IMG/VR virus record: IMGVR_UViG_3300031621_000022
Location: 1 to 28,589 of that record
Strand: one strand, 5' to 3'
Source: a virus
Length of the DNA: 28,589 bases
In this document: in pieces, positions 6,704 to 26,496 of the stretch
Position numbering within the stretch: position 1 is the stretch's first letter
Layout of the letters: each line of letters starts with the position of its first letter
The notes under the pieces: model-generated
Seen by the model: only the letters and a program-made list of their open reading frames with translations
Told to the model about the DNA's origin: nothing
Databases searched by the model: none
Made by a program: the position numbers and the translations under genes

Positions 6704-7492
6704 ATGGCGGTAAATATAAATACAGTATATCAAACAGTCTTGTATATTATAAACAAAGAACAAAGAGGTTATATAACACCTGCTGAATTTAATAGCTTAG
6801 CAGATCAAGTGCAAGATGAGATATTTCAATCATATTTTCCAGACGGTAATCAATTAAATCGTCAAAATCAAAACAATACACAAAACGATACAGAGTTTTT
6901 TAATGTATTTAAAAATATTGACTATAGATTATATCCTTTTGAAAATGAAGTTAGTTTTGTTTATGACACGGCTAATTTTGTTTGGCAATACACTGACCCT
7001 AACGACGAAGGTTTAATTGGTCAAATATATTTAATAGGAGATATTATATCGCAGTACAATAGTGATAATTCTACTTCACAGCCTCCTTCCGTAAGTGATA
7101 CTAATCAAAATTCTATAACTCAATTGGCTAGTAAAAAAGATTATAATAAATTAATAAGATCAAAATTAACTGCACCCACAAGGCAATATCCTTTATGCTT
7201 TAAAACAAATGTATTAAATACACTAGCTTTATCAGTTAACCCTAACCCCGATACTTTATTAGTTAATTGTATATTTAAGCCTATCCCTCCAAGATGGGGG
7301 TTTTTTGTAGGAGCCTTAGGCCAATACTTAAATAGCGCTGCAAATTCAGTAGATTTTCAATTAGATATTTCTGAGCAAAATAATTTAGTAATAAATATTT
7401 TAAAATACTGTGGAATTATAATAAATGATCCTACAATTATACAAGCCGCAGCTCAAGAAGCTCAGCAGGCATCAATTAACGAAAAATCATAG
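6704..7492 (+). CDS. Probable head-tail connector / ring protein
   Basis: A 262-residue protein with a helical N-terminus (VYQTVLYIINKEQRGYITPA, then EFNSLADQVQDEIF) that resembles small neck proteins of Bacteroidota podoviruses as I remember them. A Gln/Asn-rich linker (about 46-62) and a beta-rich central part follow. The C-terminus is Gln/Ala-rich helix. It is the first gene after the head module and is followed 6 nt later by another connector-type gene, then by the stabilization protein, so a role in closing the portal vertex is likely. It ends in TAG with a TAA codon immediately after (tandem stops). Which ring it forms (gp4-like or other) cannot be decided here. Confidence 0.6.
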   Translation: MAVNINTVYQTVLYIINKEQRGYITPAEFNSLADQVQDEIFQSYFPDGNQLNRQNQNNTQNDTEFFNVFKNIDYRLYPFENEVSFVYDTANFVWQYTDPNDEGLIGQIYLIGDIISQYNSDNSTSQPPSVSDTNQNSITQLASKKDYNKLIRSKLTAPTRQYPLCFKTNVLNTLALSVNPNPDTLLVNCIFKPIPPRWGFFVGALGQYLNSAANSVDFQLDISEQNNLVINILKYCGIIINDPTIIQAAAQEAQQASINEKS

Positions 7493-7498
7493 TAACAG

Positions 7499-8725
7499 AT
7501 GGGTTTAATAACTGAAACAAATCAACAATATTACCAAGGAGCCCAAGGATTTTTATCTGCAACTGGAGCAATTAATGAAACATTTTCAACTACTTTTGAT
7601 ACGGACTTAATATTTGGTGATTGGAATCCAGCTAATGCTAATTATGCTTTAAACAACTTTAAAGTATATACAAGCGCAACTGGGTTGCCACAAACTTATG
7701 CAGAATACTTATTAGCTTATTCTGTTTCAAATAATATTATAAATATTGACGCCGCTTTAACAGCCGGAACTTTTGTTGTTGTGCAATTAAAAGTATTAAG
7801 CGGAGGTAAGTATGGCCAAACAGAAGCTGAAAAAGCTTACGGAGATACCGTGGAAGATAATTACGGAAGCTATGAATATATAAAATTAACAGATGCTATA
7901 GACAACTTTATGGTTGGCTATGTAGGTGATGGCAAACTAATACAAAACGCTAAAAAATCTGATGTATTGTTTTTTGCAAAAAGAAGTTTGCAAGAATTTA
8001 GTTATGACACTTTAAAAAGTATTCATTCTCAAGAGCTGAGTATACCAGCTAGCTTAAGCGTTATACTACCTCAAGACTATGTTAACTATGTAAGAGTATC
8101 TTGGATAGATCAATTGGGTGTAAAAAGAATTATATACCCAGCAAACAATTTAACTATAGCTCCTTTTGAAACACCTATTCAAGATCAAGTAGGCGAACCA
8201 ACTCAAGATAACTTTGGAGAGAATATAGAAGGAACTTCTCTTACGGTTGAAAGATGGAAAAGCGCTAATGACGGTTTAATAAACGGTCAGCTAATCAACA
8301 ATATAGATGAAGCCGTGGACTTTCAAAATGCTTATGGCTTTGAAGGTAGCTGGAATTGGGGAAGACAATATGGTTTAGACCCTCAAACATCTCAAATGAA
8401 CGGCTGGTTTAACATGGATGAAAGAGAAGGTAAAATGTCTTTTTCTAGCAATTTAGCCGGAAAGCTTATTGTGTTAGAATACATCTCTGACGGCTTGGGT
8501 TATGACTTGGATACTAAAGTACCTAAGTTAGCAGAAGATGCTTTATACGCGTCCATACTGCATTCTATAGTATCTACAAGGTCTGGGCAACAAGAATATT
8601 TAGTTCAAAGATTACAAAAAGACAGAAGAGCTAAATTAAGAAATACAAAAATAAGATTATCAAATATCAAGCTTGATGAAATTGTTCAAGTTATGAGAGG
8701 TAAATCTAAATGGATTAAACACTAA
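7499..8725 (+). CDS. Probable tail connector / tubular protein
   Basis: A 408-residue protein. The N-terminal ~105 residues are beta-rich and look like a short add-on domain. From about residue 120 the sequence (KLTDAIDNFMVGYVGDGKLI, FFAKRSLQEFSYDTLKSI, SLSVILPQDYVNYVRVSWID) is of the type found in neck/tail-tube A proteins of marine flavobacterial podoviruses. It sits between the first connector and the stabilization protein with 6-nt gaps on both sides, consistent with an adaptor ring joining portal to nozzle, like T7 gp11 or P22 gp4. No catalytic motif is visible. The C-terminus is basic and helical (RLQKDRRAKLRNTKIRL). Function is inferred from order and recalled sequence style. Confidence 0.62.
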   Translation: MGLITETNQQYYQGAQGFLSATGAINETFSTTFDTDLIFGDWNPANANYALNNFKVYTSATGLPQTYAEYLLAYSVSNNIINIDAALTAGTFVVVQLKVLSGGKYGQTEAEKAYGDTVEDNYGSYEYIKLTDAIDNFMVGYVGDGKLIQNAKKSDVLFFAKRSLQEFSYDTLKSIHSQELSIPASLSVILPQDYVNYVRVSWIDQLGVKRIIYPANNLTIAPFETPIQDQVGEPTQDNFGENIEGTSLTVERWKSANDGLINGQLINNIDEAVDFQNAYGFEGSWNWGRQYGLDPQTSQMNGWFNMDEREGKMSFSSNLAGKLIVLEYISDGLGYDLDTKVPKLAEDALYASILHSIVSTRSGQQEYLVQRLQKDRRAKLRNTKIRLSNIKLDEIVQVMRGKSKWIKH

Positions 8726-8731
8726 AATTTA

Positions 8732-11700
8732 ATGGCTAAAGTTCAAAATACTTTTTTAAAATCCAAGATGAATAAAGACTTGGATGCTCGTATAGTGCCA
8801 AATGGCGAATACAGAGATGCTAGGAATGCTCAAATAAGTAAATCACAAGATGCAGAAGTTGGAAATTTAGAAAACGTATTAGGTAATGCGCTAGAGGTTA
8901 ACTTTCAAACAAAAACCGGTGTTGCTGGTTTAACCTGTATAGGTGCTTTAACCAACGAAGTTGCTAGTACTGTTTATTTGTTTTTAACAAATTATACAGA
9001 TAGCAATCCAAATGAACCCACTCACAATCCTTCCTCTAAAAATTTTATAATATCTTACAATGTTGATTCTAATTATGTAACAGTTCTTGTGACAGGCGCT
9101 TTTCTTAATTTTTCAACTACTAATCGTTTTTATGGATTAAATGCTTTAGAAAATTTATTGTTTTTTACAGATAATAGAAATCAACCTAGAGTTATAAATG
9201 TTTCATTAGCTAACAACGATATAAGCAATATAAACCCTAATTATTACACCACTGAAGATCAAATTTCTGTTGCTAAATATAATCCGTATGCATGCATGGA
9301 GCTTTTTCAAAAAAGCAAATTAACCGCTGGATACGAAACAACAATGAAAGACGTCAATAGCGAGTTCTTGCCAAACGGCGGATCTGGATTAGCTACAGGA
9401 ACAGGTGCTGCAGGGGCTGTTACAATAGTTTTAGACGCGGGAAGTGTTATAGGTAATATTCCAGTAGGTGATTTTGATATAGGATATATATCTGGCACCA
9501 GTGGAGCTATAACTAAAATAGCTAATGCCGCAGGTATTCTAGCCACTATATCTAATGCAGCTTATGACTCTACTAATAAAGAATGGACTGTTACAATAAC
9601 TACTTCTTCAGGAACTTCAGCTGTATTTCCAACAATACCAGCAGGTGCAATATATAAAATAATTTTTAATCCAAATCCGTATTATAACTTTCAGTTTTCA
9701 GGGGATCCAGATTTTTTAGAAGATAAATTCGTTAGGTTTAGCTATAGGTTTAAATTTGTAGATAATGAATATTCTATATTTTCACCTTTTACACAGTCCG
9801 CTTTTATACCAAAACAAGACGGTTATTTTAGATATGTTAATAAAGAAGGCTTAAAAAAAATAGACGATCAATCTGAGACTTATAGAAGCACCATTGTGTC
9901 TTTTATGGAAAATAAAGTTAATGAAATAAAATTAGCAATACCTTTGCCGTATACTAATTACACTTTAAGGGATGGTTTAAAAATATCTGAAATAGATATA
10001 TTATACAAAGAGTCAGATGCTTTAGCGGTTAAAGTTGTAGAAACAATACCAATAACTACAATTGAACAATCTGCCGGTATTTGTAAAGTTAATGGAAATC
10101 AAGCAGGCATAGGTATTGGGGCCAATATTAATATTAAAGACATACAGGGTGGAATAAAAATAGGTAGCACGCTAGAAGGTTCTGGAATACCAGACAATAG
10201 TTTAATAACAAGTTTTGTACCAATAGATCCTAGTAATCCTTTATCGGGCGCTTTGCAAATAGATAAAGCAATAACAAATATAGCTAATGATGCTATTTTA
10301 ACAATAGCTAATCCTAATTATTACGTTTACACCTACAGCTCTACTAAACCAACTAAAACACTTCCAGACTCTGAGCTTGTAAGAGTTTATGATAAGGTTC
10401 CAGTTAAATCTTTTGCTCAGGAAGTTGCAGGCAATAGAGTTATATATGCAAATTTTCAAAATAAATTAACTCCTCCTTCAACCATAGACTACGAAGTAAC
10501 TTGCACTGCTAAATCTGATTTTGTAATAAATGAAATAATTGCAACTTATGTAGGCGGAGCTGTAACCGGTACTTCTATTAACGGAATAACTTTTACTAAA
10601 CTAGTAAATCCACCTTTAGGATTTTTTGTGGGTATGATTATTTCTTCAAATACCTTTGGGGTTAACATTCCTACAGGCACAATTGTAACAAGCACTACTA
10701 GCAATGGGCAAACAGGGCAATCAGGAACGGCAAATATAACTTTAAGCAATACAGTTGTAATCCCAGCAGGTACGGTTATTTTTTCATTTTTACCTGGAGG
10801 CAATGTTGAAAACACTAGCAGTAAAATTGAATACCCTAATAGCTCTGTAAAAACAAACAGAAACTATCAAATAGGTTTTGTTTTATCTGATAGATTTGGT
10901 AGGCAGTCAAGTGTTATATTGTCTGAAAATTCTACACTATACAGTCCGTATTTAGACGAAGGAGATGATATAAATAAGTGGCCTGGCAATTCATTAAAGG
11001 TTAAAGTTAATAAACCTATACTTACAAATTTATACAATGGAGATACTACAAGTATTAATTATAATCCCGGTGGATGGTATTCTTATAAAGTTGTTGTAAA
11101 ACAAACAGAGCAAGAATATTACAATGTTTACTTGCCTGGAATTATGGCTGCATATCCACAAGATCAAATTTTGGAACTAGGTAGCACTTCTCATTTCCCG
11201 CTTATAAATGACAATATAAATAAAATCCCTAAAGATTTAACGGAAGTTGGGCCTCAGCAGAGACAGTTTAGAAGTTCAGTCCAACTGTATGGTAGAGTAG
11301 TAAATACAAATACAACTATTACATATATAAACGGCCGAGCATCTAATATAGGCAATAGTAATGAACAATATTTTCCACTTAATACTTCAGATACAGTTTC
11401 AACTATATCTACTTTAAGCGATTTATTTGATTATAATTTTACAAATCCTCCTTTTCCAAATAATTTTCCGCAATTTTATTCTTTTGAAAGTAATCCTTTT
11501 ATAGCTAAAATAAGTACTACATCTCAAATAGGGCAAATTTCTTCAATTAACTATACTGTAGCAGGGGCTACTGTAGTTCAAGGAAATCCAAACTCAACCC
11601 CTCCAATTGCTGCGGACGATCCAAGCAATACAGTAAAAATAACTGCGGTATCTGTTGAATCAGATTTGGGTGTTACTAATGTACAGGGCATGCTTGTGTC

Positions 11701-14092
11701 TGGGCAAGGAGTTCCTGAAGAGACATATGTTAATGCTTTTACAGCCGCAGCTGGCCTGCCAGGTGATCCAAACTTTACAAACGCCACTATTACATTATTT
11801 GCCAAAGACAATACTACTGAAGTAGACGTTCAATTAGCAAATGGAACAAAACTTACATTTACTTCAACCGATGGCCCTACTTCTACTCCAAGGTTTACAC
11901 CTTCTGTTCCTGGGCTTCAGTATTTGGCAGTTTATGAAACTGAGGCGGTAGAAAGCTTGCTTGATATATTTTGGGAAACATCTACAGCCGGTTTAATATC
12001 AGATTTAAACGGAGCTATTATAAATAACCAAGAAGATCCAGGGGCAATTGGCATAGACAATTGGAACACTACGCCTTTTACTGAAGGCTTAAGAGGTACA
12101 AGCGGAAGCAATAATATTTTAGATGGCAATGGTTTTAATTTAATAGATGATTTTGGAAACGAAATTGTGTTTTTAGCAACTGATACTTTAGACTTAACAG
12201 ATGTAACTATTACAGACCCTGTTAGCGGGATTGTGGAATCTGTTATAGATCCGCAAGGAATAGGTAATAATGATTATTTTAGATTAATTGATAATGGAAC
12301 TGAAGGCGGCGGAACTCCCGGCCCATGGAATATTAGAACTACAAATGTAAACCAAGATCCATTAGTACCCGCTTCAAAAAGATATTACGATAATGTTTAC
12401 TTTTTCCCAGATAACGAAAACTCTGATACAAATTTTAGACGTAATTTTACTTTTACATTTACAGCAACTGTTGGAGGTACAGTAACTGAAGGGTTACAAA
12501 TAAACGCTAACTTGGTAAATGTATTGCCTGTTGCTCAAAATTATTATTTAAATCAAACTAATGTCGTGGTTTCGGATTCGGGGTCATTAGACATAAATGC
12601 CAAAAGATCAGATACAGAGATATTAAGAATAAGAGCTACAAATGGTGCTGATAATCCCGACCTTCAAAATGGAGGGATTGCAGGTGAAGGCCCGCCTCCC
12701 TTTTCAAGTCAAAATTTAACATTTACAATTATAGATCAAATTTTTGTAAACAATAATCAAGATGCTCTATTAAATGGAGTGCCTATTTTTGCACTTGGAG
12801 GTACGTTTGTTGATTTTGGAACAGATCCTTCGGAATCTCTTTTTCTTCAATGCCAACTAACCAACACTCAATCTGCTCAAGCCACATTACCCGCTAAGGA
12901 ATATAGAGTTACAGTTAGAATAGCAGATCCTTCGGAAGCCGCAGGGGGCGGTTTTATAGATCGTGTATTCAATATAGACATGCGCCTTTTAATACCAGAA
13001 GATAAAATAAATAATTTAGCTACTAGAGTAGAAACAAATAATTTTATAGGCTTCCCTCCTGTTTTAGATGATAATGGTCAGCCAACTAATATTGATACGC
13101 TTTTACTTGCGGCATTATTCTCATACGCAAAAAAATGGATTAGCTTTCCAATGACCCTAATTGATCTTACAGACACTGCTACTCCCGGCTTAGCGGCAGA
13201 TGAGGCTGGATGGTATATGTATGCTGGTGGATTTTTTGGAAATGATACCACTCAAACTCAAGCGAATCTGCGCCAAACAAGAGGAGGTGTTTCATTGTTA
13301 AACTACAGCGGTGTAATTCCTGGTGATACTAACCAAGCACCTGTTGTTATACCTAAAAATTCGCCTGACGGAGATGGTAATCAAGTTCAAATAGCCACAT
13401 TTTTTGGTGATATTTTAGGAACAGACGGTCCTTACCATGATTGGCAATTTATATTTGTAAAAACTTTATTAGAAATAGAAAGCATAGGAAATAAAAAAAT
13501 TGTATATACGGCAGCGTCACTGGGGAATCAAGTAATTGATATTTTAGCACAAGCATTTGCGTCTGACTTAATAGCCGGTGCGGGGGTAAATCCTCCAAGA
13601 ATAATTAATGATAGATTTTTTATAAAATCTCATAATCCGACCACTAGAACAATAACATTTGGCAAAAATCTTAATAGTTCATTTCAAGAGGGTACTCCTC
13701 TTTATATATTTAAAGGCGTTTTAAAACCAGATGAAAACCCTTGGTATTTTGTGCCAAAATCAATTGATCAAGGTGGACAAACGTATACAATAGATAACAA
13801 TGGAATAAATTCAGCTATAATTACATCTCCTTGGACAGGATTTTTAATTGAGGCTATTAGGACTCAATACGGGGCTAATCCGCCAGGGGGAGCGGGTGCT
13901 AATTGCGCTGCTCCTAATTGGTGTGCAGCAATACCTAATGATCCAGCAAATAATAAACCTGGAGGAAATGGCAATTTTAGTACCCCAACGGCAGAAACAA
14001 CCCAACAAAACCAACTTTATTTTCATTATAACGCATACACAGGCATTAATAGTCAAGCGAATTCTGAAAGCATTGACTTTGAAATAATATAG
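8732..14092 (+). CDS. Tail stabilization (nozzle) protein, P22 gp10 / T7 gp12-like, with inserted modules and adhesin-like C-terminus
   Basis: A 1786-residue protein, far longer than P22 gp10 (about 470 aa) or T7 gp12 (about 800 aa). The N-terminus (MNKDLDARIVPNGEYRDARN, then GNLENVLGN) is the signature start of phage stabilization proteins, which form a beta-propeller nozzle below the portal. Core segments continue at DPDFLEDKFVRFSYRFKF (about residue 325), RNYQIGFVLSDRFGRQSS (about 705) and YLAVYETEAVESLLDIFWET (about 1065). Inserted between core segments are three copies of a small beta module (residues 474-528, 633-686, 981-1045) and a Gly/Ala-rich beta insert (about 215-310). From about 1080 to the end the protein is beta-rich, Asn/Thr/Gly-rich and possibly Ig-like, so a host-binding role is plausible but inferred. 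It ends in TAG. A further in-frame TAA at 14099 makes readthrough into the next gene unlikely. Confidence 0.75.
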   Translation: MAKVQNTFLKSKMNKDLDARIVPNGEYRDARNAQISKSQDAEVGNLENVLGNALEVNFQTKTGVAGLTCIGALTNEVASTVYLFLTNYTDSNPNEPTHNPSSKNFIISYNVDSNYVTVLVTGAFLNFSTTNRFYGLNALENLLFFTDNRNQPRVINVSLANNDISNINPNYYTTEDQISVAKYNPYACMELFQKSKLTAGYETTMKDVNSEFLPNGGSGLATGTGAAGAVTIVLDAGSVIGNIPVGDFDIGYISGTSGAITKIANAAGILATISNAAYDSTNKEWTVTITTSSGTSAVFPTIPAGAIYKIIFNPNPYYNFQFSGDPDFLEDKFVRFSYRFKFVDNEYSIFSPFTQSAFIPKQDGYFRYVNKEGLKKIDDQSETYRSTIVSFMENKVNEIKLAIPLPYTNYTLRDGLKISEIDILYKESDALAVKVVETIPITTIEQSAGICKVNGNQAGIGIGANINIKDIQGGIKIGSTLEGSGIPDNSLITSFVPIDPSNPLSGALQIDKAITNIANDAILTIANPNYYVYTYSSTKPTKTLPDSELVRVYDKVPVKSFAQEVAGNRVIYANFQNKLTPPSTIDYEVTCTAKSDFVINEIIATYVGGAVTGTSINGITFTKLVNPPLGFFVGMIISSNTFGVNIPTGTIVTSTTSNGQTGQSGTANITLSNTVVIPAGTVIFSFLPGGNVENTSSKIEYPNSSVKTNRNYQIGFVLSDRFGRQSSVILSENSTLYSPYLDEGDDINKWPGNSLKVKVNKPILTNLYNGDTTSINYNPGGWYSYKVVVKQTEQEYYNVYLPGIMAAYPQDQILELGSTSHFPLINDNINKIPKDLTEVGPQQRQFRSSVQLYGRVVNTNTTITYINGRASNIGNSNEQYFPLNTSDTVSTISTLSDLFDYNFTNPPFPNNFPQFYSFESNPFIAKISTTSQIGQISSINYTVAGATVVQGNPNSTPPIAADDPSNTVKITAVSVESDLGVTNVQGMLVSGQGVPEETYVNAFTAAAGLPGDPNFTNATITLFAKDNTTEVDVQLANGTKLTFTSTDGPTSTPRFTPSVPGLQYLAVYETEAVESLLDIFWETSTAGLISDLNGAIINNQEDPGAIGIDNWNTTPFTEGLRGTSGSNNILDGNGFNLIDDFGNEIVFLATDTLDLTDVTITDPVSGIVESVIDPQGIGNNDYFRLIDNGTEGGGTPGPWNIRTTNVNQDPLVPASKRYYDNVYFFPDNENSDTNFRRNFTFTFTATVGGTVTEGLQINANLVNVLPVAQNYYLNQTNVVVSDSGSLDINAKRSDTEILRIRATNGADNPDLQNGGIAGEGPPPFSSQNLTFTIIDQIFVNNNQDALLNGVPIFALGGTFVDFGTDPSESLFLQCQLTNTQSAQATLPAKEYRVTVRIADPSEAAGGGFIDRVFNIDMRLLIPEDKINNLATRVETNNFIGFPPVLDDNGQPTNIDTLLLAALFSYAKKWISFPMTLIDLTDTATPGLAADEAGWYMYAGGFFGNDTTQTQANLRQTRGGVSLLNYSGVIPGDTNQAPVVIPKNSPDGDGNQVQIATFFGDILGTDGPYHDWQFIFVKTLLEIESIGNKKIVYTAASLGNQVIDILAQAFASDLIAGAGVNPPRIINDRFFIKSHNPTTRTITFGKNLNSSFQEGTPLYIFKGVLKPDENPWYFVPKSIDQGGQTYTIDNNGINSAIITSPWTGFLIEAIRTQYGANPPGGAGANCAAPNWCAAIPNDPANNKPGGNGNFSTPTAETTQQNQLYFHYNAYTGINSQANSESIDFEII
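10151..10315 (+). repeat. Beta module copy A inside the stabilization protein
   Basis: Residues 474-528 follow the pattern G-S-x-L-x-G-S-G-I-P-D-x-S-L-I-T-S, then a variable loop, then a strand ending ANDAILTI. It is a protein-level repeat (divergent in DNA) of copies at 10628, 11672 and 15338. Confidence 0.55.
10628..10789 (+). repeat. Beta module copy B inside the stabilization protein
   Basis: Residues 633-686: VGMIISSNTFGVNIPTGTIV, then TSTTS, a loop, and ITLSNTVVIPAGTVIFSF. The shared core is G-x-x-I-P-x-G-T-x-V-x-S followed about 15 residues later by a T-L-S strand and a closing strand. Confidence 0.55.
11672..11866 (+). repeat. Beta module copy C inside the stabilization protein
   Basis: Residues 981-1045: VQGMLVSGQGVPEETYVNAF, then a longer loop, ITLFAKDN and NGTKLTFTS. 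It matches the V-x-G-x-G-(I/V)-P core and the closing L-T-F strand of the other copies. Confidence 0.55.
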
Positions 14093-14125
14093 GTAATTTA
14101 AACTAAAATTAAGTAATAATTAATT

Positions 14126-15817
14126 ATGGCAGGTGCACTATTAGAAATAAAATATTTTAATACGTTTTTTTTAAAAAAAATAGTTAATGACCCTTTACCT
14201 GTTTGGAATGGTTCTTTTGGAATTCCATCCGCAATAGGTGGCTACGCATCGGTTACAGCTAGCGATAATACATTTAACTGGGCAATCGAAGAATCAAGAA
14301 TTCGAGGAGGCTACAATAATACTAATGTAGACTATGGAGCAAAAGCATATATTGTAGAAGATGAACCTCAATCCACCAGTAGGGTTAACAGCCTAATATA
14401 TTCAGGCGTGTTTAATTCTAGAACCGGCGTTAATCAAACAAATGTATTTTCGGTTGCTGAAGACATAACTAAAACTGCTGATCCCGCAAATGGCTCTATA
14501 CAAAAATTATACGCCGAGGATACAAACCTTTCTATATTTCAAGAGCTTAAATGCTCAAGAGCATTAATAGATAAAGATGCTATATACTCTGCAGAGGGTG
14601 GAGGCACTGTAACATCAAGTAATTTAGTTATAGGCGTAATACAACCTTATACTGGAGAATATGGTATAAGCAGAAACCCTGGAAGTTTTGCTGTTTATGG
14701 TTATAGAAAATATTTTTCAGACACTAATAATAATGTTATTTTAAGGCTGTCTAAAGATGGCTTAACTGAAATATCAGGTTATGGCATGAAGGATTTCTTT
14801 AGAAAATCTTTAAGTAAATCAAGAGTTAATATTGTTGGGGGTTATGATATATATAGCAATGAATATTTAGTGTCTATTCAATCAGATAATTCAACTAATG
14901 AAAACGCTAAAACATTAAATTTTGACGAACGAGCGCAAGGATGGGTTAGCTTTTTTTCTTATGAGCCCGATCAAGCATTTAGTTTAAAAAATAATTTTTA
15001 TACAGTTAAAACTACGGGTGGAGCAGCGCAACTTTGGAAACACCATAGCTCTCAAGTTAATAGAGGAAATTTTTATGGAGTTGATAGAAAAAGTTCTATA
15101 GAATTTATTTTTAATCCAAACCCAACAAATTCAAAAAGCTTTAAAACTATAGCCTATGAAGGAAGTAACGGATGGGAAGTTGAAAATTTTATTTCTGATG
15201 AAACAGGTAAAAGCAGAGGTGTAAATGGCAATTGGGGAATTAGTCAAGACACAGGGACTGGTGTTGCAGACATTAATAATATTTCTAAAATAAAAAGCTA
15301 CGGAGAAGGCGAGTATGTTTTAACAGAAGGATCTGGAGTAACTTTAGCAGCTTCAACTGTAACAACCGTTTTATTAAATACAGAATCTTTTACCGGCTTA
15401 GCGGTTGCGGGCTCTGTAATAGACGGCGCCGGCATAAGCCCGGGCACTACTGTTGTTTCTTACAATAGCACAACAGGATTACTTACTGCATCGCAAATAA
15501 TGGCAATCGCTTTAGGAGCTACTTTAAACTTTAGCGGAGCGGTTAGTCAAGTAGATTATAATACTATTTTTTCTACAATAAATCCAGATTTTGATAGGTA
15601 TTATTGTGGATTTTTAAGAAAAGAAAATAAATATGTAGCTAATTTATTAAATAATAGCCAAGCTGCTGTAGGTGAAGTTTTATTTGGTGAATCTATTAGC
15701 GGAATTAAAGGATTTTATTCTACAGTTAAATTGTCAACAGACAGCACTACAGATCTTGGCGGTGAAAAAACTTTGTTTTCAGTTGAAAGCGTATATACAA
15801 TGAACAATGGATATTAA
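14126..15817 (+). CDS. Tail protein, probable second part of the stabilization/nozzle complex
   Basis: A 563-residue protein starting 33 nt after the 1786-aa gene and in the same reading frame, though separated by in-frame stops. Central segments (YGISRNPGSFAVYGYRKYF, then LRLSKDGLTEISGYG) are of the type I associate with the propeller part of stabilization proteins in marine flavobacterial phages. The N-terminal ~100 residues may dock on the preceding protein. A beta module like those in the preceding gene lies at residues 405-472. The C-terminus (GIKGFYSTVKLSTD) is beta-rich. Most likely this is a separately translated tail component that works with its neighbour; either an ancestral split or an independent gene is possible. 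The ATG is preceded by an A/T leader without a Shine-Dalgarno site. Confidence 0.6.
   Translation: MAGALLEIKYFNTFFLKKIVNDPLPVWNGSFGIPSAIGGYASVTASDNTFNWAIEESRIRGGYNNTNVDYGAKAYIVEDEPQSTSRVNSLIYSGVFNSRTGVNQTNVFSVAEDITKTADPANGSIQKLYAEDTNLSIFQELKCSRALIDKDAIYSAEGGGTVTSSNLVIGVIQPYTGEYGISRNPGSFAVYGYRKYFSDTNNNVILRLSKDGLTEISGYGMKDFFRKSLSKSRVNIVGGYDIYSNEYLVSIQSDNSTNENAKTLNFDERAQGWVSFFSYEPDQAFSLKNNFYTVKTTGGAAQLWKHHSSQVNRGNFYGVDRKSSIEFIFNPNPTNSKSFKTIAYEGSNGWEVENFISDETGKSRGVNGNWGISQDTGTGVADINNISKIKSYGEGEYVLTEGSGVTLAASTVTTVLLNTESFTGLAVAGSVIDGAGISPGTTVVSYNSTTGLLTASQIMAIALGATLNFSGAVSQVDYNTIFSTINPDFDRYYCGFLRKENKYVANLLNNSQAAVGEVLFGESISGIKGFYSTVKLSTDSTTDLGGEKTLFSVESVYTMNNGY
15338..15541 (+). repeat. Beta module copy D in the 563-aa tail protein
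   Basis: Residues 405-472 contain VAGSVIDGAGISPGTTVVSY, then TGLLTASQ and GATLNFSG. This is the same pattern as the three copies in the preceding gene. The stretch at about 15430-15455 is much richer in G+C than its surroundings. Confidence 0.55.
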
Positions 15818-17640: not shown

Positions 17641-20600
17641 ATGAACGAATTACAAAAATTTACAGCTTCGCTTCAAGGTCATTGGAATGACAAAGAAATA
17701 AAAGAACTTGTTATACAATGGAAAATAGACAATCAATGGGAGCAAAACAAACCTCAACCAATGGGGCCGCAAGAAGCACCAAAGCCTGAGAAGTTAACAT
17801 TAGAAGATACTTATATAGAAGAAGAAGTTTTTGAAGAAGTAAAGACGGAGGGCGATGCAGCGGGTGCAGGTGTGGAGCTAAGACAAACACCAGCACCAGT
17901 AGATATTACGGACTTAGTATTGGAAAATGGTTCTTCGGATTTAAAGCCAAATAAATTACAAAGTATTACTGAAAATTATAGTATTGACGGCAAAAAAGTA
18001 ACTGCTGATGACTTTGATTTTTACACGGAATTTAATAAAAATTTAAATCCCCAAGGAGCTTTGCTGCCCACCGTAAAGGATAGAAGCATTATAACCGTAA
18101 ATCAAAATGGAAAAAAAACGTCTTATTCAGCTAAACAAATAAAAACTTTAATAGAAAATAATTCCCCTGGTTTTGAAGACGTATCTAGCGTTCAAGAATA
18201 TGTAGATAGATTTGGCGATAATGCAGAAATTGTTGATCAATACAAAGACACTTATAAAGAGCAGCTTATCAAATACCAGCAAGAAATCGATGTAAGTAAA
18301 GTAGAGCAGGATGAAATAAACGCTTTAATAAGCAACCCCGATTTATTTAAACCTTACGTTGTAGAAACTGAAATTGTATCTGGAGGCGGGGGTAGTTCTA
18401 TGACAGGCTACATGCCGTCTAGCACTTCTATAAAAAGCGAAACAATAAAACCCTATGAAAACCAGCTTAAAGAAGCAAAAGCAACTTTAGTTAAAAATAG
18501 AAAAGCTCAAAACAGCTCAGAGCCTATAACTCAGCAAGAAATTGAAGATCAAGCAAAAGCCATTATAGAATATCAAAAGCAAGATGCTATAAGGAATGAT
18601 AATGCGGCTAAGCTTTTAAAGGACGGTAAAATTACGGAAACTCAGCAAAGTGAATTCTTAGGTATTATAGGTAAAAAAGCAAAAGATTCAAGTTGGAATT
18701 TACAGCCGCAAGCTAATCTTGTTGAGAAAAAAACCGCTAAGCTAAAAAACGGAAGTACTATACAAAATATAAATTCATTTTCTAAATCACTAGAAGAAGA
18801 TAGATTAAAATTAAGTAATCTAAAATCAGCAATGATAAAAATCTCAGGGGGTGATATGAAAATGAGTTCCCTAGATAGTCCTGAAAGAATAAATGAATTT
18901 AATAAAGCTGTAACAGAATACAATTCTATAATTTCTAATTACGATAAAAAATCAAAGTTTTTAGAAAAACTTGGAAAAGATTATCAAGTTCAATACAATT
19001 CTTTAGAAGCGGAGCAGGGCAATCTTATAGGCATGGCCTTAGATTCTGATACTAGTAAGTATGCTTTAAATTCATTAAAGCGAATTTACGATAAAGAAGA
19101 AAAACTTGCCTTAAACTTGGCTTTAGGTACTTTTAACATAGCAGCACAGGCAGGTGTTTTAGTAGAGGACGTTATTAAGTTTTCATTTGGAAACAGCGTG
19201 TTATTAGGTACAAAAGATACTGACTTTAAAAATAAAAAGCTATTTGGATTAGCAGAACTAGGAGTAAAGTCACAGCAAGCTCAAGAGTATATAAGAAATA
19301 AGTATTATGAGCCAATAACTTTTGATAAGGCATTTAACAGTTTAAGTAATTTTGGAAATTATGCTCTTGAAAAAGCAGTTGAACAAGCACCCATATATGC
19401 CGCTATTGCGTCTGGAGGCCTTGGAATGTTTGCGGTTTCAGCAAGTAGCGGTGGTGATTACTCATCATCAAGAAGAATAGAATCTAAACAAATAGGAGGC
19501 AGGGCTTATAATCCTGATGACGTGCTTTTTAGATCATTAGGATATGCAGGATCCGAGTATGTTTTTGGAGCACTACCAACCAGTAGATTGTTTAAAAGTT
19601 TAAACAAAGGAGCGGGTGATGGCACAAGAAGAGAAATATTAGACGGCATGCAGCAGTGGTGGAGAAACACTAAAACTTATGCTCCTAGTAATTTTGGAAT
19701 TGCGTTCGTTGACAAAATAGGAGAAGGCATGACTCAAGTTAGTCAAAATCTATTTGATGACAGCAGCCAAAATATATTTAGAGATGTACCAGAAGCGGTA
19801 TTTGTTGGAGGAATGTTTTCATACTCAGCAGCTTCAGCGCCTGTTATAAAAGGAGCTGTTTTGGCTAATTTTTCAGATTTTAAAACATATGATACTTATA
19901 GAGGTAATCTAAAAATGATAAATTCACTAGAAAGTTCTTTAAAAAATCAATGGACAAACGCTGATTTAAAAGAAAATACTAGAAAGCAAATACAACAATT
20001 AAAAGATCAGAACTTAGAAATAATAGAAGTTCAAAATAGAAAAGTAAATAACAACTTAAGTAGAGAAGGTTTTGGGTATTTTCAAAACGGAATGGAAAGA
20101 CAGGAGCAACTTAGAGTGGAAGCTGAAGCTGTTTTGGCTAATGAGTCTTTAAGTAAAAAGCAAAAAGACCAACGAATAAAAGAATTAAGTAATGAGTTCC
20201 AAGCTTTAAAAAACGGCATAGATGATTACAAACAAGCTTTTGCTAAAACCTTTAAATTACAAACAGCTAAAGAACAAAATAGATTAAAAAAAGAAGCTAA
20301 AATAAGATTAGAAGTACAAGGTAAATCCAATCCGAGTATTCAAAACGTATTAGATGAAGCTGAAAAAATACATACAGAAGAAAAAATAAATAACAATATA
20401 TCTAAAGAAACTTCCTTTTTAGAAAGTTTAATTGGAGCAGGTGTTGATATTAAATACAAAGCTGCTCAAACCAATGCAGAAGCTATAAAAGCTTTTACAG
20501 ATCTTATAAACGCAAGAGTAGAAGATGCAAACAATAGCATTAACAGAGAGCAAGGCGATAAATATATAAAGCAATTTAAAGAAGGAATAAATTCAGGGGA

Positions 20601-23600
20601 AACAAATGGTGTTAATATTCCATCTACAACTAACGGCAAAAAAGTTTACGATTCTGTAGTGTCCGTTCAAAACTCTATAGCAAATGAAAGAAGCGAAACT
20701 GGATTTCATGAACTTGGTCATTCCATAGCTGCTGAGGCCTTATCTACTGATCCAAATGCTTTTAAAGAAGTAGCGAATTCTGTTTTGGAATTTTTGCAGC
20801 AAAACAATAAAGACGCTTACACAAGAGTTAAAGCCAGATCTAAGGGCCAAGGATTTGATGAAGTTATAACTTATTTTTTAGAAGAAGTAACAAGCGGAAA
20901 TGTTAATTTAGAAAAACAAAGAGATACTGGATTTTTAGGTGCTCTAGGACAAGCGTTTGGTATTGCAACCGGCAAAGCAGGTAAAGCTGATTTTGATTAT
21001 AACTTTAAAGGCGAAACAGATGTTATAGCTTTTATGACTCAGCTAGGTACTAAAATAAAAGATGGTACTTTAACAGTAGGAGATGTTAAAGATATACAAA
21101 AATCAGATACATTAAAAACAGAATCCGAGTCTGAAGTTGATCTCGATCAAGCTGATCAAGATTTATTTAAAGAATCTAGAGTTAAATTAAATGAGTTAGC
21201 TGTTAAATCTAAAAAAGAAGATTTATCAATTACTGAACAAAAAGATTTAATAACTGAGTACAAAAGACTAGCGTTGTCAGGACCTGGTTTAAACTTTCAA
21301 AGTTACAAGTCTAGACAAGCAGGTCAACAAGGATTAAAGTCTATAAATAAAAATGATGCAGAATCTTTTGTTATGCAATATTACCAAGGCATATTAGATC
21401 GATACACGCCAACAATTGATGGTAAAAATATTGCTTTTTCAACTTTAGTTATATCCAATATTAATCCAAAAAGAGCTTTGTTTTTTGAACAAGAAATAGG
21501 AGGTTCAGATGTTGAAACTAGAATATCAGACGAAAGGCAAAAAGAAATAGAAAGCATTGAAGACACATCAAGCGAAACAATTGCAGAAGTAAACACAGAT
21601 GTTAAGCTTGTTGACAATATTAAAGTTAACAAAAAACCTTTAAGCACTGAATTTAAAGATAAAGTTAGAAAATTTGTAACTGAACAATTAGGAAGTGTAG
21701 ATGTTAATAGCGAAAAATTTAGAAAACAAGTTTTTAAGCCATCTAAAGCTTTTGTAGATTTTATTGTTAAAGATTTAATTGGTAGCCCAAAAAAATTTAA
21801 ACAATTTATACTGGAAAATCCTACTTTTTACAAAGGATTAAACATAACTGAATTAATTGCAATTGATGAAGGTAGAGTAGGAATGAAGCCTCCTCAGCCT
21901 AGATTGTTTACAGAATTTAACAGAAGACTTACAAAGCAGGCTGATATTGAAAAGTTTATGATGCAAGGAAAAATTCCTTATCTTACTGTTACTCAACAAA
22001 AAAATGGTGCAGATCTTTATAACAGACTTACTCCGTTACAACCAGCATTAAATCAACACTTTTTTGGCAGTATTTCTGATAGCAGTAAAAGTAACAGAAA
22101 GCGTGCTGCGGCTAAAGTCATTGCCGCTAAATTTATAGCAGAAGCAGCACCAAGTACAGAGGTTTTTAAAGCTAAACCGGAAATTGTTAGAGCTAAAACT
22201 GCTGAAAAACTACAGGTATCACCTAATGCTAAGTTTAGTGAAAATAGAAAAAACGTATTTATTGAAACAGGGTTAGACAGTAAGTCTAGGCCAGATTTTG
22301 CAGAATATAGCTTTGGTTATACAAAAGTTCTTAATTCATTATTAAAAGGAACAGGCTTTAGCAGAATAGATATGAAAGATCCTGAAGGCCGAAAAAGGTT
22401 TTTAGATTTTGCAATTAGCAGCGGATTAACTAAAAAACTTCCACCTATGTTTTGGAGGAAGTTGGCTTTTACTACTGAGAATGCTCTTACTAAAGATACG
22501 CTTAAAGAATTAGAAGAAGCTGGAATTGAAACAAAACCTTTTACTGAAGACGGCGAACTAGGGGATCTTAGAGAATACACAGGTAACTTGCCATTTAAAA
22601 ATGTTATAGAAGCTAACGTATGGGTATCTGAGTCTATAAAAGCAGAGCAAAAACGCTTAAGGAAGCCTAAAAATGAAGGTGGTGAAAATTTAAGCAAAGC
22701 TGAAGCTAAATTAAAAGCTAGAAATCTTTTTGCTAAAGATAGTGATTTTCCAGCATTAAAAAACATGCTTACTTATGAAGGTGTATATTCACAAAAAGGT
22801 AATTTAGAAAATGAATTAAATAATCCCGAGTTTGTAAAAAGACAAGATGAATCCATAGATGAGCTAGGTAAGCTTTTTGAAATGTTTCAAAACGAAATAA
22901 TGAGAAACAAAAATGGCACTATGAATTTCGAAGGTGTTGCTTTTGTGGGAGCTTTATTGTCTTCTAGCTCTTCTGGACAAGGACATTTTTTAAGATCTTC
23001 AGCTCCTTTTAGATTTTATCAAAAAGGGTATATGAAAACTGGATCTAGTGGAAACACTTTAGAGCATACTTTACCTGCTACTATAGTTGGAAAATATTTA
23101 TTTATGCAAGCCCTAGAAGGTAATGTTGGAGAAAACTTTAAAAACATAAAAAACAATTATTTTCAAGGACCAATATCTAATAAAAATGATAAAAAGCTAA
23201 AAGGCCAAAAACTTAATGGAGAAACATTTGATTACAGAGAAAAAACTCCAGAAGGATGGAAAATAACAGATAACATTTGGGCTAGATATTTTAATATTAA
23301 TGTAGGCTTAAATGGCGGTGGTATAAATCCAAGTGATTTAAAATTGCCAAACGGCAAGTCTGTTTACGATGTGCATAATATAACTTCCACCGGCGTTAAG
23401 GTTGATGTTGAAATGAAACAATCTAGATCTAAAGCTAATGATTTAGACGTTGATTTAGTTCCTAATATTATAACTTATAGTGATCCAGTAACTACCCAGA
23501 CATTAATAAACGCTTTAGCTAAAACTGATAAAGCTTTAAACGTAGCAAGAAGCGTAAATGCTCCAGTTAAAAAAATTAGAGTATTTGATTTTGATGACAC

Positions 23601-26496
23601 TTTAGCAACGTCAAAAAGCATGGTTGTAGTTAATATGCCAAACGGGTCTAGCAAAAAAATTAACGCAACAGAATTTGCTAAACAAGCTGCAGACTTAGAA
23701 TTGCAAGGTGCTAAATTTGATTTTACTGAATTTAGTAAAGTTGTTGATGGCAAAAAAGGGCCTTTATTTAGTGTAGCACAAAAAATTGCAAGTGTTAGAG
23801 GAACGGAAGATGTATTTGTATTAACAGCTAGACCTCAAGAAGCCGCAGGTCCTATAAAAGCTTTTATGAAAGCAAATGGTATAGACATACCTTTAGCTAA
23901 TATAACTGGCTTAGGGGATGGCACAGCACAAGCTAAGGCTGGTTGGATAATGGGCAAAGCTGCAGATGGTTATAACGATTTTTACTTTGCAGATGATGCT
24001 GTTAAAAACGTTAAGGCTGTTAAGGATGTACTTAGCCAAATAGATGTTAAATCTAAAGTTCAATTAGCTAAATTCAGCAAAATGCAAACTTTTGATATCA
24101 TTGTAAATGATATGATTGAAGACTCTTCTGGAATAGCTACATATAAAGAATATTCTGCAGCTAGAGCTAAAACGGTTGGCGCCAACAAAGGAAAATTTAA
24201 TTTCTTTATTCCACCGTCTGCTGAAGATTTTACAGGATTATTGTATAAAATGCTAGGTAAAGGCAAAAAAGGTGATGCTCAAATGGCGTTTCTTAAAGAT
24301 AATTTACTTGATCCTTACGACAGAGCTGAGTCCGCTGTAACGCAAGCTAAAATAGCTGCGGCAAATGATTTTAAAGCTTTAAAAACGCAATTAAAAACTT
24401 TACCTACAAGCTTAAGCGTACCAACAGGGGTTGGAGGTTTTACTTATTCTCATGCGGTCCGTGTAGCTATTTGGTCAGCTCAAGGCATGGACATACCAGG
24501 CTTATCTAAAAGAGATATTAAAGATTTGAATGATTTTATTCAAAATGATCCTGAATTAAAAACTTTTGCTAACGAGTTAATAGTAATACAAAAAGGTAAA
24601 CCATATCCTAAGCCAGGTCAAAATTGGCTAGGTGGCAACATTACTAGTGATATTATAAATGATATTAATAAAGTTAATAGAGCTGAGTATCAGCAAGAAT
24701 GGAGAGAAAATGTAGATATTATATTTTCAAAAGACAACCTGAATAAAATGGAAGCTGCGTATGGAACTAAATGGCGTAAAGCTATAGAGGATTCTTTGCG
24801 TAGAATGAAATCTGGTAGCAATAGACCCCCTGGAGGCAATAGCGTAACAGATGGATTGCTTGACTGGTTAAACAATTCAGTTGGCGCCGTAATGTTCTTA
24901 AATACAAGATCTGCATTGCTTCAAACTATATCTGCGGTAAACTTTATAAACTGGGGTGATAATAACATAGTAAAAGCAGGATTAGCGTTTGCAAATCAAA
25001 AACAATTTTGGTCTGATTTTATGACGCTTATGAATTCTGACTACTTAGTAGAACGTAGAAACGGTCTTAAAATAAATGTAAGTGAATCTGAAATTGCAGA
25101 TGCTGTAAGAGATTCAGACAACAAGGTAAAAGCAGCTATAGCTTTTTTACTTAGCAAAGGATTTGTAATGACAAGGTTTGCAGATAGCTTTGCAATTGCA
25201 AGCGGAGGGTCTACTTTTTATAGAAACAGAGTTAAAGCTTTAGTGGGTAAAGGAATGGAACAAAAAGCCGCAGAAGCACAAGCATTTGAAGACTTTAGAC
25301 AAATAGCAGAAGAAAGTCAACAGTCAAGTAATCCAAATAGAATTAGCCAGCAACAAGCTTCTGGTGCAGGTCGTGTTATATTAGCTTGGGCAAATACGCC
25401 GATGCAATATGCTCGTATACAAAAAAGAGCTGCTCAAGATCTTATAAACGGCCGTGGCGATTGGAAAACCAATGTATCTAAAATAGTTTATTACGGCGCT
25501 GTACAAAATTTAATATTTAATGCATTACAACAAGCCGTATTTGCTTTAGCGTTTGGAGAAGACGAAGACGAAGAAGTAAAAGACGCTAAGAAAAACGAAA
25601 AAATTTCAAGAGTTGCAAATGGTATGATTGACTCTCAGCTTAAGGGCTTAGGCATAGGTGGAGCTGCTGTGGTTGCAGTAAAAAGTGCTTTAATGGAATT
25701 AGGTAAGCAACACGCTAAAGACCGCCCTAAATACGAAGAAGCTGTATTTGATTTGCTAGGCTTTTCACCACCTCTTGGGTCTAAGATTCAAAAAATATAT
25801 GGAGGACTTAGAAGCTTTAGCTGGAGCATGAAAGATATTAAAGATAAAGGTTTTAGTTTAGATAATCCAGCTTATTTAGCAGGTGCTCAAATAACAACAG
25901 GTCTTACTAATATTCCGCTAGACAGAGTTATTAAAAAAATTAATAGCATGCGAGGAATTGTAAGCGAACAATCTTCTCTTTGGCAAAAAGTTGCTTTAGG
26001 TCTTGGTTGGTCCACTTGGGATGTAGGTCTTGGTTATTACGGAGGGTTTGACGCGGCAAAAGTTTTAACGCCTGAAGAGGAAAAAGTTAAAGAAATTGAC
26101 GATATGAAAAAGTTAACTAAAACAAAAGAGCAAATTGATATGCTGCTTGATTTAGGGTTAACTAAAAAAGAAATAAAAGCTTTAGGCAAAGAGCAAGTTA
26201 GAGTTGAAAAAATTATAGAGCTGCAAAATGCAGAGGCTAAACCTAAAGAAGAGGTTAAAGTTAAAGAAGAAATAAAAGGAGAAACTAAACCAACACCAGA
26301 AGTAAAAGCAAAACCTAAAACCGAAAGCGTTGAAAGAAGGCTTAGAAGACAATTTGATTCTATTAAAGATGAAAACAAACCTGATCAAGTAAAAACATTA
26401 CTTAAATTTGGGTTAACTAAAAAACAAATAAGAGAGTTACAATACGAAAAAAATAGAGTAAACAAAATATTAGAACTAATGGAAAAAAATAAATAA
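17641..26496 (+). CDS. Giant multidomain (polyvalent) ejection protein with zincin and HAD domains
   Basis: A 2951-residue protein taking 31% of the window. In order: an acidic, disordered N-terminus (to ~120); helical Lys/Glu/Gln-rich region; hydrophobic patches at about 488-515, 580-603 and 719-744; coiled-coil-rich segment (~750-930); zincin motif HELGH (His1023, Glu1024, His1027) with a candidate third ligand at Glu1074 (FDEVITYF); a possible degenerate sigma-like stretch (~1230-1310); a region with TLEHTLPA (~1806-1813); and a complete HAD phosphatase set: DFDDT (Asp1983, Asp1985), Thr2062 in LTARP, Lys2099, and Asp2118-Asp2119. The C-terminal third has hydrophobic stretches at ~2414-2437 and ~2614-2639 and ends in a duplicated motif. 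Position after a gp14-like gene suggests a virion protein ejected with the DNA, like giant 'polyvalent' proteins of other phages. Enzyme activities are inferred from motifs. Confidence 0.72.
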   Translation: MNELQKFTASLQGHWNDKEIKELVIQWKIDNQWEQNKPQPMGPQEAPKPEKLTLEDTYIEEEVFEEVKTEGDAAGAGVELRQTPAPVDITDLVLENGSSDLKPNKLQSITENYSIDGKKVTADDFDFYTEFNKNLNPQGALLPTVKDRSIITVNQNGKKTSYSAKQIKTLIENNSPGFEDVSSVQEYVDRFGDNAEIVDQYKDTYKEQLIKYQQEIDVSKVEQDEINALISNPDLFKPYVVETEIVSGGGGSSMTGYMPSSTSIKSETIKPYENQLKEAKATLVKNRKAQNSSEPITQQEIEDQAKAIIEYQKQDAIRNDNAAKLLKDGKITETQQSEFLGIIGKKAKDSSWNLQPQANLVEKKTAKLKNGSTIQNINSFSKSLEEDRLKLSNLKSAMIKISGGDMKMSSLDSPERINEFNKAVTEYNSIISNYDKKSKFLEKLGKDYQVQYNSLEAEQGNLIGMALDSDTSKYALNSLKRIYDKEEKLALNLALGTFNIAAQAGVLVEDVIKFSFGNSVLLGTKDTDFKNKKLFGLAELGVKSQQAQEYIRNKYYEPITFDKAFNSLSNFGNYALEKAVEQAPIYAAIASGGLGMFAVSASSGGDYSSSRRIESKQIGGRAYNPDDVLFRSLGYAGSEYVFGALPTSRLFKSLNKGAGDGTRREILDGMQQWWRNTKTYAPSNFGIAFVDKIGEGMTQVSQNLFDDSSQNIFRDVPEAVFVGGMFSYSAASAPVIKGAVLANFSDFKTYDTYRGNLKMINSLESSLKNQWTNADLKENTRKQIQQLKDQNLEIIEVQNRKVNNNLSREGFGYFQNGMERQEQLRVEAEAVLANESLSKKQKDQRIKELSNEFQALKNGIDDYKQAFAKTFKLQTAKEQNRLKKEAKIRLEVQGKSNPSIQNVLDEAEKIHTEEKINNNISKETSFLESLIGAGVDIKYKAAQTNAEAIKAFTDLINARVEDANNSINREQGDKYIKQFKEGINSGETNGVNIPSTTNGKKVYDSVVSVQNSIANERSETGFHELGHSIAAEALSTDPNAFKEVANSVLEFLQQNNKDAYTRVKARSKGQGFDEVITYFLEEVTSGNVNLEKQRDTGFLGALGQAFGIATGKAGKADFDYNFKGETDVIAFMTQLGTKIKDGTLTVGDVKDIQKSDTLKTESESEVDLDQADQDLFKESRVKLNELAVKSKKEDLSITEQKDLITEYKRLALSGPGLNFQSYKSRQAGQQGLKSINKNDAESFVMQYYQGILDRYTPTIDGKNIAFSTLVISNINPKRALFFEQEIGGSDVETRISDERQKEIESIEDTSSETIAEVNTDVKLVDNIKVNKKPLSTEFKDKVRKFVTEQLGSVDVNSEKFRKQVFKPSKAFVDFIVKDLIGSPKKFKQFILENPTFYKGLNITELIAIDEGRVGMKPPQPRLFTEFNRRLTKQADIEKFMMQGKIPYLTVTQQKNGADLYNRLTPLQPALNQHFFGSISDSSKSNRKRAAAKVIAAKFIAEAAPSTEVFKAKPEIVRAKTAEKLQVSPNAKFSENRKNVFIETGLDSKSRPDFAEYSFGYTKVLNSLLKGTGFSRIDMKDPEGRKRFLDFAISSGLTKKLPPMFWRKLAFTTENALTKDTLKELEEAGIETKPFTEDGELGDLREYTGNLPFKNVIEANVWVSESIKAEQKRLRKPKNEGGENLSKAEAKLKARNLFAKDSDFPALKNMLTYEGVYSQKGNLENELNNPEFVKRQDESIDELGKLFEMFQNEIMRNKNGTMNFEGVAFVGALLSSSSSGQGHFLRSSAPFRFYQKGYMKTGSSGNTLEHTLPATIVGKYLFMQALEGNVGENFKNIKNNYFQGPISNKNDKKLKGQKLNGETFDYREKTPEGWKITDNIWARYFNINVGLNGGGINPSDLKLPNGKSVYDVHNITSTGVKVDVEMKQSRSKANDLDVDLVPNIITYSDPVTTQTLINALAKTDKALNVARSVNAPVKKIRVFDFDDTLATSKSMVVVNMPNGSSKKINATEFAKQAADLELQGAKFDFTEFSKVVDGKKGPLFSVAQKIASVRGTEDVFVLTARPQEAAGPIKAFMKANGIDIPLANITGLGDGTAQAKAGWIMGKAADGYNDFYFADDAVKNVKAVKDVLSQIDVKSKVQLAKFSKMQTFDIIVNDMIEDSSGIATYKEYSAARAKTVGANKGKFNFFIPPSAEDFTGLLYKMLGKGKKGDAQMAFLKDNLLDPYDRAESAVTQAKIAAANDFKALKTQLKTLPTSLSVPTGVGGFTYSHAVRVAIWSAQGMDIPGLSKRDIKDLNDFIQNDPELKTFANELIVIQKGKPYPKPGQNWLGGNITSDIINDINKVNRAEYQQEWRENVDIIFSKDNLNKMEAAYGTKWRKAIEDSLRRMKSGSNRPPGGNSVTDGLLDWLNNSVGAVMFLNTRSALLQTISAVNFINWGDNNIVKAGLAFANQKQFWSDFMTLMNSDYLVERRNGLKINVSESEIADAVRDSDNKVKAAIAFLLSKGFVMTRFADSFAIASGGSTFYRNRVKALVGKGMEQKAAEAQAFEDFRQIAEESQQSSNPNRISQQQASGAGRVILAWANTPMQYARIQKRAAQDLINGRGDWKTNVSKIVYYGAVQNLIFNALQQAVFALAFGEDEDEEVKDAKKNEKISRVANGMIDSQLKGLGIGGAAVVAVKSALMELGKQHAKDRPKYEEAVFDLLGFSPPLGSKIQKIYGGLRSFSWSMKDIKDKGFSLDNPAYLAGAQITTGLTNIPLDRVIKKINSMRGIVSEQSSLWQKVALGLGWSTWDVGLGYYGGFDAAKVLTPEEEKVKEIDDMKKLTKTKEQIDMLLDLGLTKKEIKALGKEQVRVEKIIELQNAEAKPKEEVKVKEEIKGETKPTPEVKAKPKTESVERRLRRQFDSIKDENKPDQVKTLLKFGLTKKQIRELQYEKNRVNKILELMEKNK
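26125..26223 (+). repeat. C-terminal motif of the giant protein, copy 1
   Basis: Residues 2829-2861 (core LLDLGLTKKEIKAL, then RVEKIIEL). It matches copy 2 at 17 of 33 aligned residues without gaps. The DNA shares an exact 15-nt run (GGGTTAACTAAAAAA) at 26155 and 26410, exactly 255 nt (85 codons) apart. Confidence 0.8.
26380..26478 (+). repeat. C-terminal motif of the giant protein, copy 2
   Basis: Residues 2914-2946 (core LLKFGLTKKQIREL, then RVNKILEL), six residues before the end of the protein. It is separated from copy 1 by a Lys/Glu/Pro-rich linker. The helix-turn-helix-like spacing suggests a small helical hairpin. Confidence 0.8.

Follow-up and report, generated by a model that had tools for sequence, protein, structure and literature searches.

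A family of predicted small β-barrel inserts in the split crAss-type muzzle of a marine virus

We analyzed a virus record of 28,589 bases (IMG/VR record IMGVR_UViG_3300031621_000022, hereafter the window), in which the end of a terminase gene is followed by a portal gene (phrog_6547), genes for several virion proteins, a gene for a 2951-residue protein and small open reading frames (ORFs). Two adjacent genes on the plus strand, encoding proteins of 1786 residues (w8732, positions 8732–14092) and 563 residues (w14126, positions 14126–15817), carry four divergent copies of a small β-module that is the subject of this report. The two proteins match opposite ends of a single 1474-residue PHROG, phrog_14478 (positions 2–182 and 919–1318, respectively). 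Residues 312–356 of w14126 also match the Pfam family PF25729 (crAss_MUZ_C) with 39.6 bits, above the cut-off of 27, and an AlphaFold2 (AF2) model of this protein superposes onto residues 1120–1371 of the phicrAss001 muzzle (7qol_P) with a Z of 16. Both were aligned by hhalign to an alignment of six annotated muzzles: core residues 1–769 of w8732 correspond to residues 1–648 of crAss001 gp44 (E of 2.3e-44), while w14126 (E of 7.2e-37) is placed on gp44 at about 1037–1287. As the muzzle (nozzle) is encoded by a single gene in phi38:1 (gp097) and in crAss001 (gp44), the two ORFs of the window are the N-terminal and C-terminal parts of one protein, a homologous split crAss-type muzzle. The original prediction placed the repeat in two adjacent tail proteins; it is indeed present in both ORFs, but these are halves of one muzzle. 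The 80 closest relatives among viral contigs likewise have separate N and C muzzle ORFs.

In phicrAss001, the muzzle is located at the tail tip, and muzzle length is described as varying by insertions into the crass and IG2 regions (PMC10172136); we took the limits of the gp44 domains (IG1, IG2 and crass) from the same work, which relates to the PDB structures 7QOK and 7QOL. The split in the window (8732–15817) falls at approximately gp44 1020–1037, directly after the IG2/crass region. The window muzzle has the same order of core segments as gp44, the fold of its C half and the PF25729 match, and departs from crAss-type muzzles in not being one polypeptide. In contrast to gp44, which is one gene and gives no match to the module profile, the inserts of the window muzzle belong to one recurring module family.

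The module spans about 65 residues, or about 75–80 with its linkers. Copies 1–3, all detected by profile, are in the N half: copy 1 (residues 457–526, positions 10100–10309; site B) at gp44 274/275 in IG1, copy 2 (residues 609–684, positions 10556–10783; site C) at gp44 337/338 in IG2, and copy 3 (residues 959–1044, positions 11606–11863; site D) between gp44 648 and 948 in the IG2/crass domain. Copy 4 (residues 408–470 of the C half, positions 15347–15535; site G), detected by profile and modeled with AF2, replaces the turn of a hairpin of the form EYV..V.R..Y, which is empty in many relatives. All four are on the plus strand. The repeat had been placed at 10151–15541; this range begins within copy 1 and ends with copy 4, and the module boundaries are slightly wider. 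A fifth, divergent copy was suspected by eye at residues ~215–312 (site A) of the window protein, but the site-A profile yielded only 0.1 bits and the copy is not claimed. Matches at residues ~230–278 of C halves (e.g. L066, E of 0.00022; L numbers denote individual contigs) coincide with a conserved core hairpin and were treated as false.

An iterated profile seeded with copy 4 alone and run over 691 ORFs (the window and its 80 relatives) finds all four copies with E of 1e-11 to 2e-7. Since recovery of the four by this route is circular, the search was repeated with a profile built from other genomes only. This profile, from 187 unique N-half copies, detects copy 4 in the other protein with an E of 3.7e-9, and copies 1, 2 and 3 with E of 1.9e-11, 3.8e-8 and 1.9e-7 (search space of 16 window proteins). 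As decoys, the same 691 ORFs were reversed and block-shuffled; these yielded no match at E≤1, compared to 302 for the real ORFs, and chance resemblance was rejected on this basis. Profile–profile comparison of the N-half and C-half module sets gives a probability of 99.2 and an E of 3e-19. Homology of the four copies is thus confirmed, as is the arrangement first proposed, with three copies in the larger protein and one in the smaller that share a core motif followed by a loop. Searches with single sequences returned little (tblastn of two module copies against a phage collection gave nothing at E≤1, and a pattern scan of viral contigs using one copy found only itself), because the individual copies are too divergent.

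Excision of the modules and alignment of the remaining cores revealed recurrent insertion points, at gp44 175/176 and 274/275 (IG1), 337/338 (IG2), 1237/1238 and beyond 1287, together with an insertion stretch between 648 and 948 (IG2/crass) whose second anchor is weak (probability 32). Removal of near-identical genomes reduced 81 N halves to 68 and 79 C halves to 63. Before slots were counted, 23 matches spanning fewer than 40 profile columns were excluded; eight placements labeled A2, probably site A shifted by the alignment, were pooled with A, and a placement labeled Gx was left out of the pooled counts. Sites A, B, C and D are filled in 29 (pooled), 28, 55 and 41 of the 68 N halves, respectively, with at least two copies at D in 11 of them; the rarer sites E, F and Cx are filled in 3, 2 and 1. 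Among the 63 C halves, G is filled in 24, I in 3 and H in 2. The 68 genomes display 23 presence/absence patterns, with 0–7 copies per genome, and 30 copy-number patterns (33 if A2 is kept apart and the one Gx placement is retained). The muzzle is longer by about 90 residues per module copy (r of 0.64). The empty allele of site G consists of a short hairpin (..EGEYVINPANGQAVxRxxY..), and the filled allele has the barrel in the hairpin turn. L066, which is identical to the window at 366 of 552 positions, has one extra barrel in a loop that is empty in the window, a clean insertion. The copies had been described as lying between conserved core segments, and this holds; the modules are absent from many homologues, and in relatives whole modules are missing between intact flanks. 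In this marine clade, many of the muzzle inserts are copies of a single barrel family, for which distinct sites, alleles without an insert and nested copies can be defined.

Copies are also found outside the muzzle. The upstream virion structural protein w6704 (positions 6704–7492, plus strand), a homologue of phi38:1 gp095, has no module in the window, but its homologues in L048 and L067 contain one, at differing places, and the L048 copy is closest to site B of its own genome. The relation of w6704 to gp095 is firm, and no other is; a tie to a crAss001 ring protein was not found by hhalign (best E of 0.017, gp34) or BLASTP (0.72, gp43). Within the collected loci, strong module matches are confined to the muzzle halves and the w6704 family. 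In L035, the copy at site Cx shares 65.6% protein identity with that at site C of the same genome, and 130 of 170 bases (76%) are identical, a duplication within the genome into a site filled in only one of 68. The site H copies of L066 and L055 are both closest to site A of L051; in L066, the similarity extends to the upstream linker ALTNG.

In many relatives, two module matches overlap or abut each other. Excising the inner, full module and joining the flanking sequences restores a full outer module. We considered a site nested if the rejoined sequence scored at least 13 bits, gained more than 3 bits from its own right flank and was equaled by no more than 1 of 172 swapped flanks. With this flank-swap control, 13 sites in 11 genomes (two each in L010 and L024, and one each in L014, L015, L017, L019, L020, L021, L022, L029 and L040) are nested, out of 34 distinct junction-spanning cases. 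Those not counted include 18 of the 34 without a gain above 3 bits, among which several site D cases lose score, and three that gain more than 3 bits with a rejoined score below 5 bits. The nesting junction falls within the variable loop that follows the VVSY/F strand. At site C, L013, L015 and L016 hold a recognizable outer copy with an extra barrel in this loop, with weaker rejoining scores; copy 2 of the window is the un-nested form of the module that holds a second one in these three. The varied filling of slots, the copies in another virion protein and the nesting together make the module look like a reusable part of phage tails.

The region 396–474 is the most confident part of the AF2 model of w14126, with predicted local distance difference test (pLDDT) values of 95–98 over blocks within 411–470, compared to 70.7 for the whole chain. 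Copy 4 modeled alone, with an alignment of 64 modules, has a mean pLDDT of 92.6 and six strands. Copy 4 is thus predicted to be a compact six-stranded β-barrel, both alone and in context. The top matches among solved structures are barrels in phage tail proteins, namely a baseplate chain of JBD30 (8rk3_b, Z of 8.2), the tail tip of Chi (8vjh_B, Z of 8.0) and the tail tube of Mystique (9n71_A, Z of 7.5). The archaeal protein PF0907 and a phage Bridgette chain are also among the best, followed by barrels of IF2, EF-Tu and F1-ATPase; T5 pb9 has a Z of 6.5 (72 residues aligned, rmsd of 2.8). The 50 predicted viral protein matches listed share 8–32% identity with the module; most are tail, fiber, capsid and uncharacterized proteins from tailed phages, and a few belong to giant viruses.

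The small barrels of Chi (8VJH), Mystique (9N71) and JBD30 (8RK3) are similar to the module over 64–74 aligned residues (Z of 7.5–8.3), but share only 10–18% identity with it and have no link at the sequence level. Searching solved chains with the module profile gave none below an E of 0.1, the only chain being 3qkb (E of 0.15), although a relation could be masked by divergence. The promiscuous Ig-like domains that Fraser et al. reportedly described in phage virion proteins in 2006 are likewise small β-domains spread across unrelated virion proteins. They belong to another sequence family, and the module, unlike them, nests in itself; its best fold matches are six-stranded barrels, which does not in itself refute an immunoglobulin fold. 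A small barrel is likewise inserted into a tail protein in T5 pb9 (residues 89–170) and in JBD30 gp49 (domains V and VI), labeled oligonucleotide/oligosaccharide-binding (OB) domains in PMC7291167 and PMC11445458, respectively. Unlike these OB-type decorations of distal tail proteins, the module is multi-copy, polymorphic and self-nesting. As far as the models indicate, it resembles OB-type decorations in fold and promiscuous domains in behavior, with membership established in neither.

A profile of 64 module sequences was also used to search whole phage records. It matches a virion structural protein of S-PM2 (E of 4.3e-8) and a second one (6.5e-7), a tail fiber of Syn30 (2.9e-5) and a hypothetical protein near gp7 in P-HM1 (3.5e-5). 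These T4-like cyanophages contain the same module sequence family, but in unrelated host proteins and phage families; as they were picked because the fold search named them, three of three is not a rate. The profile has no match at E≤1 in crAss001, phi38:1, Gundel_1, Panino, elemoA, phi13:2 or MW202828. A match with an E of 0.0016 in the Maribacter phage Panino, the only one below 0.01 among six annotated relatives, concerned a core-like C-terminal stretch and was not counted. Muzzle homologues are also present in five metagenome-assembled contigs of the genome collection (L104–L108), one of which (L107, labeled Flavobacteriaceae) has a module copy. The others are labeled Bacteroidetes (two), Ilumatobacteraceae and Woesearchaeota; the Ilumatobacteraceae and Woesearchaeota contigs may be mis-binned, and the labels hint at a host in the Bacteroidota.

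Curated models do not clearly cover the module. The four copies have no Pfam match at E≤10 (best of 0.01 among the 64 members), the best NCBIfam match has an E of 0.027, short of a clear match, and the best PHROG match has an E of 0.00095, with one of the four copies (0.0013 among the 64 members). A limited literature search found no report of the module's identity, slot turnover or self-nesting, and a strict search for nested or inserted decoration domains and for tail insertions of marine crAss-like phages found none, which is weak evidence of novelty.

A second type of inserted module, with the pattern GxGYxxG...GxGYxxGDxVxITGGG, has 21 matches in 12 proteins and none that overlaps the first type. 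It is located in the w6704 family (residues ~87–240) of L028, L031, L041, L043, L044, L058, L069, L073 and L079, in the N halves of L032 and L050 and in the C half of L042 (residues 334–409), with one further match in L105, and looks nested in L044 and L069. No match was found in reversed decoys, none is convincing in the window, and the four proteins tried have no Pfam match for it. Site G in the C half of L071 is occupied by another glycine-rich insert, similar by eye to the second type and missed by its profile; a third type, suspected in the w6704-type protein of L071, has no relatives in the set. The protein encoded at window positions 7499–8725 has an N-terminal domain (residues 28–102) outside the part aligned with phi38:1 gp096. 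With 82 matches in 80 homologous proteins from the loci of the relatives, this domain is a fixed extension and in this respect unlike the mobile module. Elsewhere in the window, the 2951-residue protein (17641–26496) contains HELGH and DFDDT stretches, noticed by eye, which we take to resemble metalloprotease and haloacid dehalogenase (HAD) motifs; Pfam gives nothing for it at E≤0.01. A 125-residue ORF (27164–27541) matches DUF6321 with 34.8 bits (cut-off of 28.5).

We consider it probable that the module represents a family of small six-stranded barrel inserts, with members gained, lost or copied from one permissive virion-protein loop to another. The four barrels are located in the split muzzle, at the tail tip, and a hexameric muzzle like that of crAss001 would carry 24 of them per tail. 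Recombination between related virion genes may transfer copies as in-frame DNA segments. Because the ends of the barrel adjoin, it could replace a β-turn and would hence be tolerated. The barrels would occupy the outer face of the IG1/IG2/crass region and might there form weak, many-fold contacts with a putative ligand in host-surface material and thereby tune adsorption. The proposal that the module is mobile and spreads among tail proteins is supported by polymorphic sites with clean filled and empty alleles, the in-genome duplication, the copies in the w6704 family of L048 and L067, the self-nesting and the occurrence in virion and fiber proteins of cyanophages.

Several observations count against these conclusions. 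As regards homology, identity between copies is only 9–16 of 57–59 columns, a phmmer search with copy 4 fails to detect the 1786-residue protein at E≤1, and a profile from 37 unique C-half matches, partly contaminated by short core matches, misses copies 1–3 at E≤5. The relatives were fetched with a module-bearing query, which biases the occupancy frequencies, and the thresholds for nested sites were chosen after the scores had been seen. The fold was modeled for copy 4 only, with copies 1–3 placed in it by homology. The matches to phage tail barrels are tied with those to translation-factor and F1-ATPase barrels (Z of about 6–8), and all Foldseek E-values are above 0.001; a function shared with other phage barrels thus does not follow, and the mutually close Z values indicate a common arrangement only. 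Finally, the best match of a copy is at the same site for 180 of 202 copies and at another site for 22, and site labels require 33 changes on a weak FastTree tree (64 columns), compared to 113–129 when shuffled. Movement is thus rare, and most copies are old residents.

This site fidelity, like the filling of site C in 55 of 68 N halves, is also what a structural role would produce, in which the barrels pack on the muzzle, its neighbors or the fibers and stabilize the tail tip or set its gate. In the baseplate hub of JBD30, a small six-stranded barrel is credited with stabilizing the baseplate (PMC11445458). We regard such a role as unlikely to be the main explanation, since many sites are empty (G is filled in 24 of 63 and B in 28 of 68), copies nest in each other and the same family is present in virion and fiber proteins of cyanophages. 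Alternatively, the barrels could be near-neutral passengers, tolerated at β-turns and spread by recombination without a selected function. The great variation in occupancy, the nesting and the presence, in the same kinds of proteins, of another insert type unrelated to the first would all fit, whereas the long persistence of core motifs at a given site across many genomes and the confinement of strong matches to the muzzle halves and the w6704 family make this improbable. A last alternative is that each of the four segments evolved independently as an integral part of the muzzle core and resembles the others through a chance glycine-rich β-pattern, as the low pairwise identity and a weak match of w14126 core residues 235–255 to the contaminated C-half profile (E of 0.0023) might suggest; this is hardly credible given the empty decoy search, the detection across proteins and the absence of whole modules between intact flanks in relatives.

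The exchange of barrels between permissive virion loops may extend further. One could tentatively envisage a self-hosting mobile part, with one barrel family exchanged among unrelated marine phages and using β-turns, its own variable loop among them, as acceptors, so that tail tips would carry Russian-doll trees of barrels that vary in number and branching and make up a changeable host-contact layer, with a second insert family behaving alike; this is possible, though doubtful. The crAss001 structure paper describes insertions that vary muzzle length and are able to change its surface, and the available excerpts do not state the nature of the inserts (PMC10172136). Length variation of the muzzle by insertion was therefore known; within our limited literature search, the identity of the insert, the turnover of slots and the self-nesting have no earlier report. 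With the module, it can be directly tested how phages remodel the tail tip while leaving its gate unaltered, and its profile could label unannotated stretches in structural and fiber proteins of marine phages.

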